Of a DNA stretch of 33,122 nucleotides, positions 5,511 to 26,744 are shown one piece after another. Where the stretch lies: positions 1 through 33,122 of IMG/VR virus record IMGVR_UViG_3300049811_000061; one strand, written 5' to 3'. Numbering within the stretch: position 1 is the first letter of the stretch; the number at the start of each line of letters is the position of its first letter. The translations under genes and the position numbers were made by a program. Source of the DNA: a virus. The notes below the pieces were generated by a model. It was not told the DNA's origin. It saw only the letters and a list, made by a program, of their open reading frames with translations, and did not search any database.

Positions 5511-6188
5511 CTAGATGCGCTCGGACTGCTTGTAGATGATGCGCCCGACGATCTTCACGTCTTCGGTGCACAGCTTGGGCGCGTAGCGGCGCTGGTCGGC
5601 GTTGTCGCTGGCCGCCCACCATTCGCCGGCATCCCGGCGCAGGCGCTTGATGACTAGCTCGCCCTCGTAGTTGATGGCGAAGGCGTCGCCGTCGCGCGGT
5701 GCCGTGTCGTCCGTATTGACCACGACCAGATCCCCGTCGTAGAGCGCGGGTTCCATGCTCTCGCCGGTGACGCGCACCGCGAATAGCTTTTCCGGGCGGT
5801 AGCCGTGCGTGTCGAACCAGTCACGCCGGAAAAATACCGGCTTGCCGTTGCCGGCCTCTGGCTCGATCGCATACCCGGACACTCCGGCCGACAACTTGAA
5901 GCGGACCCGCGGCACTTGCGCAAGGTCGGGATGGTTGCCCAGGTCGACCTGGCGCGCGTGCTCGACATCGAGCCAGCCTGTCGGCAACCGGCAGCGGTCC
6001 TCGATGTAGCGCGCCGTGGCCGTACTCATGCCGCGCTGCTTGCCCGTGGCCGAGTGCGTCGCGCCCTGGACCCACTGGCTGACCTGGCTATCGCTCTTGC
6101 CCAGGTGCTCGGCAAAGCGGGCGAGGCCGCCGTATTGGTCGCGCAGCACAGCCAGGTTGTCGCGGCGGATGTCGTCGATCGGTTTCAT
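5511..6188 (-). CDS. LexA/CI-type prophage repressor (HTH plus S24 peptidase)
   Basis: A 225-residue repressor. Residues 1-75 form an atypical helix-turn-helix DNA-binding domain (GGLARFAEHLGKSDSQVSQW). Residues 130-221 are an S24 self-cleavage domain with catalytic Ser144 (VTGESMEP) and Lys181 (ELVIKRL). An Ala-Gly pair at 101-102 is a candidate cleavage site, so RecA-stimulated autocleavage on DNA damage is expected. It diverges from the cro-like gene, and five 13-bp inverted repeats at nearby promoters are its likely operators. No good ribosome site precedes the ATG; a -10-like TCTAAT ends six bases upstream, so its message is probably leaderless. The gene ends at a clear terminator. Confidence 0.93.
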   Translation of the reverse strand: MKPIDDIRRDNLAVLRDQYGGLARFAEHLGKSDSQVSQWVQGATHSATGKQRGMSTATARYIEDRCRLPTGWLDVEHARQVDLGNHPDLAQVPRVRFKLSAGVSGYAIEPEAGNGKPVFFRRDWFDTHGYRPEKLFAVRVTGESMEPALYDGDLVVVNTDDTAPRDGDAFAINYEGELVIKRLRRDAGEWWAASDNADQRRYAPKLCTEDVKIVGRIIYKQSERI

Positions 6189-6235: not shown

Positions 6236-6265
6236 TTGACGCTTTGACTAGCTAATGGCTACACT
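6236..6265 (+). promoter_or_regulatory. Rightward early promoter (PR-like)
   Basis: TTGACG (6236-6241), an 18-base spacer and TACACT (6260-6265). Operator O5 overlaps the first two bases of the -10 exactly as O3 does in the main left promoter. Initiation six to eight bases downstream would fall at the cro-like ATG (6273). Confidence 0.75.
6249..6261. promoter_or_regulatory. Operator O5, 13-bp inverted repeat
   Basis: TAGCT-AAT-GGCTA, one mismatch between arms, overlapping the -10 of the rightward promoter. It lies 48 bp from O4 in the divergent control region. Confidence 0.72.
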
Positions 6266-6272
6266 ATTTCGC

Positions 6273-6509
6273 ATGAAGCTAAACGACTATCTCAATGCGA
6301 ATCCCGGCAGCGGGTCGCGCCTGGCCGCCGACCTCGGCGTGAATCCAGTCATGGTCACGCAATGGCGGCACGGAAAGAAGCGCGTGCCGGCCGAGCGGTG
6401 CCCCGAAATCGAGCGCGCTACCAGCGGCAAGGTGACGTGCGAAGAACTCCGGCCTGACCTGTCCGGCGAGTGGGCATACCTGCGCGAAAGTAAGCGAAGG
6501 GCCGCATGA
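6273..6509 (+). CDS. Cro/YdaS-like DNA-binding protein
   Basis: A 78-residue helix-turn-helix protein. Residues 14-33 (GSRLAADLGVNPVMVTQW) are the DNA-reading helices and the following VPAERCPEIERATSGKVTCE is the hallmark of the YdaS/Cro-like family. It should bind the same operators as the repressor and favour the lytic state. The ATG at 6273 is preceded seven bases upstream by the -10 box and has no ribosome site, so the message is probably leaderless; an in-frame ATG at 6255 lies upstream of the -10 and cannot be used from this promoter. Confidence 0.88.
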   Translation: MKLNDYLNANPGSGSRLAADLGVNPVMVTQWRHGKKRVPAERCPEIERATSGKVTCEELRPDLSGEWAYLRESKRRAA

Positions 6510-7252: not shown

Positions 7253-7736
7253 GGACCAATACAAGCATCCGCTCTGGCAGAAGAAGAGGCTTGAGGCTTT
7301 GGAATATGCCGGATTTCGCTGCGAGTCATGTGAAAGCACAGAGGACCAGCTTCATGTCCATCACCGCGTTTACGTGAAAGGGCGGCTGATATGGGATTAC
7401 GAAGTGACCGAGCTATCTGTCTTGTGTCACTCATGCCATGAGCAGGCGCACGTCCACATCGAGCGATTCCGCCAGGTTCAGATGCTTATTCCGCCTTCGA
7501 TGATCGGACGCGCCGCGCAGCTACTGGAGGGATGGGCGGACTATCAGGGCTTAGTAAGCCCAAGCCCAGGCTTGTTTGGCACTTCTGATCCCGATGCTTT
7601 TGATCCCGACGCCTTCTATGCAGGACAGTTAGCCGGATACATGGAAACAGAGCTTGGCGGGGTGCTTAGTGACATGGCTTGTCGCATATCACCCGACAGG
7701 ACAGAGGCGTTTATAAGGGGGGAATGCCAGAAATGA
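7242..7736 (+). CDS. HNH endonuclease-like protein
   Basis: A 164-residue protein with a C27-x-x-C30 / C62-x-x-C65 zinc knuckle framing the HNH core L-H-V-H-H (residues 37-41), W51-D-Y, and L-C-H-S-C-H-E-Q-A-H (61-70). This is an HNH nuclease arrangement. The C-terminal 90 residues are acidic and not recognised. ATG at 7242 is chosen because GGGGG stands about seven bases upstream; TTG at 7236 is a worse choice. Lower GC than the neighbours hints at a recent acquisition. It could be a homing-type nuclease or a DNA-processing nuclease. Confidence 0.75.
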   Translation: MQFKDQYKHPLWQKKRLEALEYAGFRCESCESTEDQLHVHHRVYVKGRLIWDYEVTELSVLCHSCHEQAHVHIERFRQVQMLIPPSMIGRAAQLLEGWADYQGLVSPSPGLFGTSDPDAFDPDAFYAGQLAGYMETELGGVLSDMACRISPDRTEAFIRGECQK

Positions 7737-8488
7737 TGCGTCTGCACGTAAAGAACTGGCACGAATTCCAGCACTACAAGGACCGCGCGCCGCCCTGGAT
7801 AAAACTGCACAAGGGGCTGCTAGACAACTACGAATATCAACGCTTGCCGGTTGCTAGCAGGGCGCTAGCGCCGATGTTGTGGCTGCTAGCAAGCGAGTCC
7901 GAAGACGGATCAATCGAGTACGACTGCGACAAGATCGCCTTCCGCTTGCGCACATCCTGCAAGGACGTTGCTGACGCCATCGACCCCTTGATAAAGGCCG
8001 GATTCATGGTCGTTTCCGGCGTTGCTAGCAACTCGCTAGCAGAACGCGAGCAAGACGCTATGCCAGAGAAAGAGGTAGAGGAAGAGGCAGAGCTAGAGGA
8101 AGAGGAGAGGCAGAGCAAGGTCCGCACAAGTCGCGGACACAGACTGCCAGGCGACGCCGCTCTGACCGAGTTGTGGGTAGCAGAAGCAAAAGCGATACGG
8201 CCTGACCTCGAACAACAAGCCCTTGGTGCCATCTTCGCGGAATTCCGTGACTACTGGATCGCGCAGCCAGGACAGAAGGGGACCAAAACCGACTGGATCG
8301 CCACTTGGCGAAATTGGGTTCGCCGAGAGAAGGGCTTTAAGCCGTCTTTGGCGACGAGGCCACTGAACGGACGCCAGGCCGCAATCAGCAGCTACGCCGC
8401 GCAGGCCGCGGCAGCACGGGGGGATGGACATGGATTTGCCACAGCACCAGAACGCGACATCACCAGCGAGGCCGTCCGTGTTGCCTGA
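7733..8488 (+). CDS. O-like/DnaT-like phage replication initiator
   Basis: A 251-residue protein. Residues 8-105 look like a RepA/lambda-O-type winged-helix domain (WHEFQHYKDRAPPWIKLHKG at the front). An acidic linker (residues 110-127, mostly E) joins it to a C-terminal domain with FRDYWIAQPGQKGTKTDWIA and TWRNWVRREKG, a motif shared with DnaT and other primosome-type phage proteins. It should bind the phage origin and recruit the P-like loader encoded next. ATG at 7733 overlaps the upstream stop and is ten bases from a G-run; 7724 and 7736 are alternatives. The coding sequence itself contains a cluster of GCTAGC palindromes, as lambda O contains ori. Confidence 0.8.
   Translation: MMRLHVKNWHEFQHYKDRAPPWIKLHKGLLDNYEYQRLPVASRALAPMLWLLASESEDGSIEYDCDKIAFRLRTSCKDVADAIDPLIKAGFMVVSGVASNSLAEREQDAMPEKEVEEEAELEEEERQSKVRTSRGHRLPGDAALTELWVAEAKAIRPDLEQQALGAIFAEFRDYWIAQPGQKGTKTDWIATWRNWVRREKGFKPSLATRPLNGRQAAISSYAAQAAAARGDGHGFATAPERDITSEAVRVA
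7853..8040. repeat. Cluster of five GCTAGC palindromes inside the O-like gene (candidate origin)
   Basis: GCTAGC occurs at 7853, 7864, 7885, 8024 and 8035. Neighbour spacings are 11, 21 and 11 bp in the close groups, matching one or two helical turns. Four of five copies extend to YGCTAGCA. A purine-rich tract (8065-8120) follows. Lambda-type phages place initiator-binding iterons at the same position, inside the O gene, so this is a candidate replication origin; binding is inferred. Confidence 0.5.
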
Positions 8489-9032
8489 CGACTGGATCGA
8501 GAGGTTGTTCCGTCGCTTCGAGGACTTCTACGGGGCGAAGTGGGCCGCGCAGTTCGGCGACTTCCCAAGGGATCGCGTCAAGCGGACATGGGCCGAAGAG
8601 TTGGGCGGGTTCGCCGACAAGCCGGAGGCCATTGGCCGCGCCCTGGATGCGCAGAAGACCAGCCCTTACCCGCCGACGTTGCCCGAATTCCTTGCGCTTT
8701 GCCGCGACGCCGCCAAGCGCATCAGCACCGACAAGCCGGCCCTGCCGTACAAGCCGACCGCCGAGGATGTCGAGCGCCAGCGCGAAATGTCGAAGCGCCT
8801 TGGCGACGTGATCGGCGCCGGCAAGATGCGCGACGGCATCGACGCGCATTGGGCAACGCACCCGCGCAACGCCGTGCAACTCGGGATGATCTTCGACGCC
8901 GCCAAGCGCGACGCGCGCTTCCAGCCGTGCATCGCGCAGATGGTCGCTGACGGGATCTGCACCGCCGAGGGCCAGTTGCTCAAGGCGTACCTCGGCATGA
9001 ACTCTTGGGAATCCGTGCGGAGGGCCGCTTGA
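8430..9032 (+). CDS. P-like replicative helicase loader
   Basis: A 200-residue protein of the lambda P family type. The N-terminal part (DDWIERLFRRFEDFYGAKWA, then a W-x-x-E-L-x-G helix and KTSPYPPTLPEFLALCR) is characteristic of proteins that load the host DnaB helicase at the phage origin. It follows the O-like initiator and overlaps it by 59 bp. ATG at 8430 is chosen because GGGGGG lies six bases upstream; GTG at 8478 with GAGG upstream is a possible shorter start that still keeps the whole conserved region. Confidence 0.82.
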   Translation: MDLPQHQNATSPARPSVLPDDWIERLFRRFEDFYGAKWAAQFGDFPRDRVKRTWAEELGGFADKPEAIGRALDAQKTSPYPPTLPEFLALCRDAAKRISTDKPALPYKPTAEDVERQREMSKRLGDVIGAGKMRDGIDAHWATHPRNAVQLGMIFDAAKRDARFQPCIAQMVADGICTAEGQLLKAYLGMNSWESVRRAA

Positions 9033-12476: not shown

Positions 12477-14034
12477 CCGAGACGGCATCATCGCCCGGCT
12501 TGGCAACAAGGACTGGCGCCTGTCGAATTTGTACAAAATTATCGTCAAGGGCGATGACAGCGCCGACGACCTGGTGATTCAGTTCAAGCCGAACCGGGCG
12601 CAGCGCCGCCTGATGACCCGGCTGCACCATCGCAACATAATCCTTAAAGCTAGGCAGCTTGGTTTCACTACGCTGATCGCAATCCTGTGGCTCGATACCG
12701 CGCTGTTCAGCAAGAATCCGATACGCTGCGGCATCATCGCCCAGGACCGCGAGGCGGCCGAGGCCATCTTTCGGGACAAGGTGAAGTTCGCCTATGACAG
12801 CCTGCCCGACCTGGTGCGCTCCATGTTCCCGCTTGCCAGGGATTCGGCCAGCGAGTTGCTGTTCGCGCACAACGGCGCGTCTATCCGCGTCGCCACGTCG
12901 ATGCGCTCGGGCACGATTCACCGGCTGCACGTCTCGGAATTCGGGAAGATCTGCGCCAAATTCCCGGACAAGGCGACCGAAGTTGTCACCGGCTCGATTC
13001 CAGCAGTGCCGACCTCGGGCATCCTGATTATCGAATCGACCGCCGAGGGGCGCGACGGCGAGTTCTACAAGATGACGCAGCGCGCGATGGCGACGCACCA
13101 GACCGGGCGCGACCTCGGGCCGAAAGACTACCGCTTCCACTTCTTCCCGTGGTGGGAAGAGCCAGGCTACGCGATCGACCCGGCGCACGTCGTCATCACC
13201 GACAAGGACCGCAAGTATTTTGGCGAGATCGAGGCGCAGATCGGGCGCGCGCTCGACGACCGGCAGCGCGCCTGGTACGTCGCCACGCGCGAACACGACT
13301 TCTCGGGAGACAGCGAAAAAATGTGGCAGGAATACCCAAGCACCGCCGAAGAGGCATTCCAGGTATCGACCGAGGGCTGTTTCTACGCCGAGCAACTGGC
13401 CGCCGCCCGGAAAGAGGGGCGCATCCTGCGCATTCCCGTGGTCGCCTCGCCGGTCAATACCTTTTGGGACTTGGGGCACTCCGGCCGCTCGGACGCGACC
13501 GGCATCTGGTTCCACCAGCGCGTCGGCATGGAGAACCGCTTTCTGCGCTACATCGAGTGGGAATCGGGCGAGACGCTATCCGAGTACGTGCGCTACCTGC
13601 AATCGACCGGCTATATCTTCGGCCGTCACTACCTGCCGCACGATGCCGAGCATCAGCGCCTTGGCACGGACCCGGACAAGAACCGCAGCATCCGCGACAT
13701 GCTCGAAGAGTTGCTACCGGGCCAGAAGTTCGAGACGGTGCCGCGCGTGACAGACATCCATACCGGCATCCAGGCCGTGCGCAACGTCTTTGCGTCCTGC
13801 TGGTTCGACGAAGAGGGCTGCAAGCTCGGCCTCGACAAGCTGGCCGGCTACCGCAAGGAATGGGACGACAAGCACGGCATCTGGCGCGGGACGCCGCGGC
13901 ACGACCAGAGCAGCCACGGCGCTGACTCGTTCCGCCAGTTCGGCCAGGAGGCGGACGCCGGCAATCAGTTCAGGGAAGGCTACGGGCGCCAATCGAGCGG
14001 CCGGCGCTCGACCGGAAGCTGGCGGGCAGCATGA
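12460..14034 (+). CDS. terL: Terminase large subunit (packaging ATPase and nuclease)
   Basis: A 524-residue terminase. The ATPase domain shows a Walker A-like KARQLGFTT (63-71), Walker B ending in LHVSE (156-160) and the motif III-like ESTAEG (192-197). The nuclease domain has FWDLGHSGRSD (about 335), PHDAEH (about 392) and HGADSFR (about 486), three acidic clusters as in RNase H-like terminase nucleases. It pumps DNA into the prohead through the portal encoded downstream. The Q-rich C-terminal tail is typical. Start at 12460; ATG at 12469 is also possible. Confidence 0.94.
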   Translation: MTTMNNRDGIIARLGNKDWRLSNLYKIIVKGDDSADDLVIQFKPNRAQRRLMTRLHHRNIILKARQLGFTTLIAILWLDTALFSKNPIRCGIIAQDREAAEAIFRDKVKFAYDSLPDLVRSMFPLARDSASELLFAHNGASIRVATSMRSGTIHRLHVSEFGKICAKFPDKATEVVTGSIPAVPTSGILIIESTAEGRDGEFYKMTQRAMATHQTGRDLGPKDYRFHFFPWWEEPGYAIDPAHVVITDKDRKYFGEIEAQIGRALDDRQRAWYVATREHDFSGDSEKMWQEYPSTAEEAFQVSTEGCFYAEQLAAARKEGRILRIPVVASPVNTFWDLGHSGRSDATGIWFHQRVGMENRFLRYIEWESGETLSEYVRYLQSTGYIFGRHYLPHDAEHQRLGTDPDKNRSIRDMLEELLPGQKFETVPRVTDIHTGIQAVRNVFASCWFDEEGCKLGLDKLAGYRKEWDDKHGIWRGTPRHDQSSHGADSFRQFGQEADAGNQFREGYGRQSSGRRSTGSWRAA

Positions 14035-26405: not shown

Positions 26406-26744
26406 ATGGCAATCGCTGAACTGTATTCCGGGTCGCAAACCGCGACCATCAACACCGAGCACACGCTGAACTCCCCGACGCCCAACACCACGGACGGCGT
26501 GTTTCAGATATTCGTTGATTGCAACGCGATGGTGGCGGGCGATGTCCTCGAACTGCGGGTCAAGGAGAAGTGCCGGTCGACTGACGCCATCCGGCAGGTA
26601 CTCATGTCCACGCTAGCTGGCGTGCAGTCTGATCCGCTATGGGTTTCCCCGTCACTTATCCTGATGCACGGGTGGGACGTAACGCTCAAGCAAACCGCAG
26701 GGACGGGCCGCGCCTTTCCTTGGTCGATCCGACAGGTCGCCTAA
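26406..26744 (+). CDS. Small tail protein, unassigned
   Basis: A 112-residue beta-rich protein starting MAIAELYSGSQTATINTEHT, ending GTGRAFPWSIRQVA. The I-F-V-D-C-N-A-M-V-A-G-D-V-L-E-L-R segment is seen in small proteins beside phage tail-fibre genes. One base separates it from the upstream stop and its TAA abuts the next ATG. Confidence 0.68.
   Translation: MAIAELYSGSQTATINTEHTLNSPTPNTTDGVFQIFVDCNAMVAGDVLELRVKEKCRSTDAIRQVLMSTLAGVQSDPLWVSPSLILMHGWDVTLKQTAGTGRAFPWSIRQVA

Follow-up and report, generated by a model that had tools for sequence, protein, structure and literature searches.

The stretch of DNA analysed here (the window) is IMG/VR virus record IMGVR_UViG_3300049811_000061, which is 33,122 bases long, and it carries an O-like replication initiator gene with a P-like helicase loader gene next to it. 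Residues 1–127 of the initiator match PHROG 26426, a 'replication protein' family (E 8e-32), and the C-terminal half matches the primosomal and replication initiation PHROGs 3992 and 1408; the PHROG 26426 profile was also matched by 32 of 32 aligned N-domains. A Pfam search of the initiator returned no significant family, including Phage_rep_O, so that homology to lambda O was not detected, and RepA_N, and a sequence search with the initiator against solved structures gave no match. In relatives, DnaC-like or helicase genes stand in place of the P-type loader. Genes encoding an HNH protein, a YdaS/Cro-like regulator and a divergent S24-type repressor lie 5' of the initiator gene, an early-region gene order that is usual for a temperate phage. 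The divergent repressor (window 5511–6188, minus strand) and regulator (6255–6509, plus strand) likely form the immunity switch. The genes and predicted protein domains are as follows.

7733–8488, plus strand: O-like replication initiator gene, 251 aa (PHROG 26426; PHROGs 3992 and 1408).
8424–9032, plus strand: P-like helicase loader gene (phrog_109, E 1e-5).
7808–8023, plus strand: winged-helix N-domain, residues 26–97 (AlphaFold; N-domain model pLDDT 90, pTM 0.80).
8120–8332, plus strand: C-terminal domain, residues about 130–200, primosomal-type, helical, with a W..TWRNWVR motif (profiles, AlphaFold).

The original prediction described five GCTAGC palindromes, spanning 188 bp inside the initiator gene, as a candidate replication origin, and the five were confirmed at 7853, 7864, 7885, 8024 and 8035, with steps of 11, 21, 139 and 11 bp. 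The remaining copies in the window are those at 26612, 26874 and 29769 only, as had been noted. The window as a whole holds no excess of this hexamer (8 copies vs 6.07 expected), and CTAG is scarce (18 vs 46 expected). Clustering of five copies within 188 bp was reached in none of 2,000,000 random placements of eight sites, and GCTAGC-N5-GCTAGC occurs twice in the window vs 0.00 expected. The copies are read in two codon frames, as had been claimed, with the sites at 7853 and 8024 in the Ala-Ser frame (GCT AGC) and those at 7864, 7885 and 8035 in the x-Leu-Ala frame (nnG CTA GCn). The cumulative GC skew has its minimum at 6102 and maximum at 12556, which is uninformative since gene direction switches near 6.2 kb.

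While the list of five perfect copies stands, it had overlooked two degenerate sites and a purine tract, and the boundaries of the cluster have to be redrawn, as the core, consisting of four slots at 11-bp steps and the tract, reaches to about 8119. The three upstream sites look like an accessory of those phages that carry GCTAGC (the GCTAGC clade). The sites, with their retention among 85 protein-selected representatives or their distance from the start of the tract, are listed below.

7853–7858, no strand: GCTAGC, upstream trio site 1 (offset 0), kept in 65 of 85 representatives.
7864–7869, no strand: GCTAGC, upstream trio site 2 (offset +11), kept in 47 of 85.
7885–7890, no strand: GCTAGC, upstream trio site 3 (offset +32), kept in 38 of 85.
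8024–8029, no strand: iteron slot 1, GCTAGC, at -42.
8035–8040, no strand: iteron slot 2, GCTAGC, at -31, the most conserved linker slot.
8046–8051, no strand: iteron slot 3, degenerate GCGAGC, at -20 (relatives mostly GCAAGC, GCTTGC or GCTATC).
8057–8062, no strand: iteron slot 4, degenerate GCTATG, at -9 (relatives mostly GCTATC).
8066–8119, plus strand: purine tract (GAGNNA)n, candidate opening or helicase-loading element (purine asymmetry, third-base A).

When members of the GCTAGC clade are aligned on the tract start, the commonest readings of the four slots are GCTAGC, GCTAGC, GCAAGC and GCTATC. Slot 4 is followed by CCA and then by (GAGNNA)n from 8066, and the most purine-asymmetric 54-mer of the window begins at 8067. 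The purine fraction of the tract is 0.88–0.92, with an AT content of 0.42–0.50 that does not rise there, unlike classical unwinding elements; this weighs against reading the locus as an origin, and an AT-rich unwinding element was ruled out. In the tract, the codons after GAG end in A in 234 of 258 cases in the GCTAGC clade (73 expected) and in 180 of 191 cases in a sister clade carrying GATATC (67 expected). Repeat slippage is not an easy explanation of this third-base A, which is constant across differing amino acids. By our own criterion, the acidic, GAG-rich tract was recognisable in 63 of the 85 representatives; that about a quarter of the protein-selected relatives have no recognisable tract also weighs against an origin. 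In the AlphaFold model the residues encoded by the lattice (101–114) have a pLDDT below 50; the lattice, like the tract behind it, is predicted to encode a disordered linker that joins the initiator's two folded domains, unlike the trio at 7853–7890, which encodes a helix (residues 40–53).

The GCTAGC pattern with 11/21 steps was found in at least 120 stretches of IMG/VR. Of the 123 matches examined, 120 lie in phase within a homologous initiator gene, the three exceptions, as read from the exception list, being two in L109 and one in L125. A GCATGC control of the same composition and with the same steps was found in 4 stretches, and a pattern with the middle site moved by one base in 2, neither in the homologous gene. 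In most members a second pair of GCTAGC with the 11-bp step lies at +159 to +215, and the 11-bp spacing is constant among relatives while the length of the linker varies. Loci with this initiator are also present in bacterial assemblies from phyla as distant as Pseudomonadota, Planctomycetota, Gemmatimonadota and Nitrospirota (L233–L271); most of them keep GCTAGC in the gene, although part of these contigs could come from free phages that were binned with a genome.

The original prediction held that the sequence is tuned although it must also code, and two kinds of evidence bear this out. Synonymous codon permutation within the gene gave a mean of 0.48 GCTAGC, and five copies in none of 20,000 trials. 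Relatives (80 viral loci and 39 from bacterial genomes) were then gathered through protein motifs encoded upstream of the sites, a selection on which the codons of the sites themselves could have no influence. In 85 representatives, GCTAGC has a density of 4.24 per kb in the gene vs 0.10 in the flanks, with 294 copies vs 46 expected under synonymous permutation. In the numbering of alignment A1 (the full-protein number minus two), Ala39 is encoded by GCT in 90% of representatives vs 23% elsewhere in the genes, Ser40 by AGC in 95% vs 28%, and Leu43 by CTA in 87% vs 12%. An origin would have been refuted, according to the original prediction, if relatives had lost copies through synonymous changes; the codon was instead identical in 88% (Ala39), 97% (Ser40) and 71% (Leu43) of 3,747 diverged pairs, vs 43%, 36% and 31% for codons of the respective amino acids at other positions, percentages that are effect sizes and not probabilities, as the pairs are not independent. 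Little or no excess over other codons was seen at Ala44 (42%) and Leu50 (38%), and relatives have more often lost the sites at 7864 and 7885.

Some relatives have no GCTAGC, namely phages PBR31 and DC33 and the Manatee Spring genomes MW202462 and MW202640, and in these four the matching slots hold GATATC at an 11-bp spacing, with the same purine tract after them. Among the matches listed for three GATATC at 11 bp, 93 of 123 lie in the homologous gene with the tract, and several of the remaining listed loci are homologues that the filter missed. The density of GATATC is 4.67 per kb in the sister-clade genes vs 0.10 in the flanks, and the CTATAG control, while frequent (68 stretches), was found in none of the homologous genes and never ahead of a tract. 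Mapped on a tree built from 132 N-domains, the labels for repeat type require 10 changes vs an average of 41.6 when shuffled, a figure that shows clustering and not the number of independent switches, many of the loci having been found by motif. The GATATC members form one well-supported side of this tree, together with one GATGCC member and one GCTAGC member. The latter (L003) belongs by protein to the GATATC clade, yet has GCTAGC at +116 and +173; it may represent a switch back, without the residues usual in the GCTAGC clade. The residues that separate the clades include 41, 43, 44 and 46 (full-protein numbering), which are not simply readable as specificity residues because some overlap the trio. 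The repeat sequence changes between clades and the architecture of 11-bp slots and tract stays.

A search that began from the tract, with repeated GAGACA as query, yielded 186 loci, which were sorted by what lies upstream: GCTAGC in 83, GATATC in 57 and neither in 46. Against a null of codon shuffling, autocorrelation at 11 bp reached z 18.5 and 19.3 in the two main classes and 14.7 in the deduplicated 'neither' loci, many of which have different initiators. Clear single cases of other repeats are L392 (CGCAAACGGAT), L458 (GACGCCAAAGC) and L481 (AACCGTAACGA); other cases are unclear, in some the step is 10 or 12 bp, and a few of the loci with a tract encode unrelated proteins. These three and two further loci, L425 (CGATCG type) and L460 (CGATGGCAAAC), represent different initiator families, and their 11-bp repeats stand directly 5' of the same GAGACA tract. 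In the primosomal gene of L483 (Burkholderia phage Bcep176 gp11) there is a strong 22-bp repeat of GGAAACAGTCCC type in the linker-coding part, twice the 11-bp step, and in the DnaT-like gene of L488 (Pseudomonas phage Ostro) CGATC-type repeats are followed by (GGGACA)n, a variant of the tract.

The layout of short, evenly spaced repeats with a purine stretch behind them recurs in hundreds of other phages, sometimes with a different repeat, and similar lattices and tracts are seen in other initiator families. The generality of lattice and tract across initiator families is suggestive but not proven. That a single architecture, with 11-bp iterons and a fixed-phase (AGAGNN)n tract, is common to several families with different proteins and different iterons (GCTAGC, GATATC, and CCGTAAC-, GACGCC-, CGATCG- and CGCAAACGGAT-type repeats), the tract acting as a sequence-specific rather than AT-rich opening or helicase-loading element and the iterons switching while lattice and tract persist, is a serious possibility that we would place a little short of an even chance.

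Sequence comparison shows that the locus is an array of short palindromic iterons, conserved at the level of the DNA and set on a lattice of 11 bp (one helical turn), with a purine hexamer tract at a fixed distance. This array is very probably the replication origin of the phage, nested in its own initiator gene in the manner of lambda. The parallel with lambda ori had been drawn in the original prediction, and it gains support from the PHROG 26426 initiator and the phrog_109 loader next door. The origin reading is favoured because the initiator and loader genes adjoin; because the constraint exceeds that of the protein, as seen in the permutation, the codon identity and the third-base A; because the 11-bp spacing is fixed despite changes in linker length, with controls; because GATATC fills the matching slots in the sister clade; because the lattice encodes a disordered linker; and because the order matches that of lambda, with four iterons behind the N-domain in O and then the opening region. 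The N-terminal winged helix would bind the iterons along a single face of the double helix and build a complex like the lambda O-some, which would open the adjacent purine tract, and the C-terminal domain together with the P-like protein would deliver the host helicase to it. The upstream trio (7853–7890) may extend this complex or serve regulation.

Other explanations of the array were considered. It might be an operator array at which the initiator or a repressor controls transcription of the replication genes rather than the start of replication, since palindromes suit dimeric regulators and origin iterons often double as operators; the core, however, sits about 290 bp inside the gene, and the fixed-phase purine tract and the order resembling lambda ori fit an origin better, making this an improbable reading, if the least improbable of the alternatives. 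Clustered palindromes also serve as packaging, partition or modification targets, but at the loci examined the array is always in the initiator gene and never with packaging or partition genes, and such a site is considered quite unlikely.

Adjacent palindromes could also form hairpins of 6 bp with 5-nt loops in the mRNA, and both GCTAGC-N5-GCTAGC and GATATC-N5-GATATC are able to fold so. Yet where the +11 or +32 site decays (to GATAGC, ACTAGC or GCTTGC), site 0 remains GCTAGC, with no compensation seen by eye, and several related arrays (L392, L458) are not self-complementary; an RNA element is disfavoured on both counts and has very little probability. The trio does encode a conserved helix (residues 40–53), as would be expected if the sites had arisen through codon bias and the conservation of a peptide (ASRALAP..WLLA) and had no function in the DNA. 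This is contradicted by the third-base A and is ruled out by the synonymous permutation and codon identity tests, while the linker slots lie in a disordered segment of variable length and the sister clade encodes a different peptide, DDINVISERYQDD, from GATATC, leaving it with a probability that is close to nil.

Origins nested in phage initiator genes are already known. In the open literature searched, which is limited evidence, no earlier description was found of the GCTAGC/GATATC repeat family or of the purine hexamer tract. The signature locates candidate origins in many uncultured phages and prophages, and it provides matched pairs of protein and site, with at least two specificities, for studying how initiators change their sites. 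It also points to an opening element that is not AT-rich and has a directly testable consensus, and constraint from coding and from the origin on the same bases becomes separable from codon choice alone.

Among known systems, origins inside the initiator gene are known for Firmicutes phages with DnaD-like or replisome organizer initiators, and the present N-domains show some similarity to them, with 12 of 32 matching the DnaD-like helicase loader PHROG 186 and weak matches to DnaD_N and Phage_rep_org_N. The hosts here, however, are mostly Gram-negative, and these repeats with the tract were not found reported for that group. In the mycobacteriophage RepA replicons of Miko and Rachaly the origin was placed upstream of or inside repA, and no repeats were seen by the authors between the tail genes and parS-L (PMC7157519). 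Initiators of other mycobacteriophages share their C-terminal domain with the present protein; no clear lattice with tract was found on scanning the initiator genes of Huphlepuff and LOCV2. The RepA_N initiators of plasmids and satellites bind iterons through a DnaD-like winged-helix N-domain and have a C-domain that varies (PMC7145576); those of pSK41, pTZ2162 and PLE RepA are among the best fold matches of the N-domain (4pta / 5kbj). These matches are not significant (TM about 0.45, E 0.4–0.8), the modelled likeness being a lead only, and its weakness weighs against an origin. The RepA_N iterons are longer, and the Pfam family is not matched here.

The model for the proposed mechanism is lambda, in which iterons in the middle of O are followed by an AT-rich opening region (PMC7466680). 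As in lambda ori and the origins of Stx phages, the iterons lie inside the initiator gene, in the linker-coding part behind the DNA-binding domain; they are four in number, a region of purine bias comes after them, and the gene for a P-type loader lies downstream. The iterons of lambda, however, are 18–19 bp long with steps of 20, 24 and 23, whereas those here are 6-bp palindromes with a step of 11, and AT content is 0.69 in the 61 bp after iteron 4 of lambda compared with 0.42–0.50 here. Since iteron size and spacing, AT-richness and homology to O all differ in this way, the locus probably works in a lambda-like manner without belonging to the lambda family.
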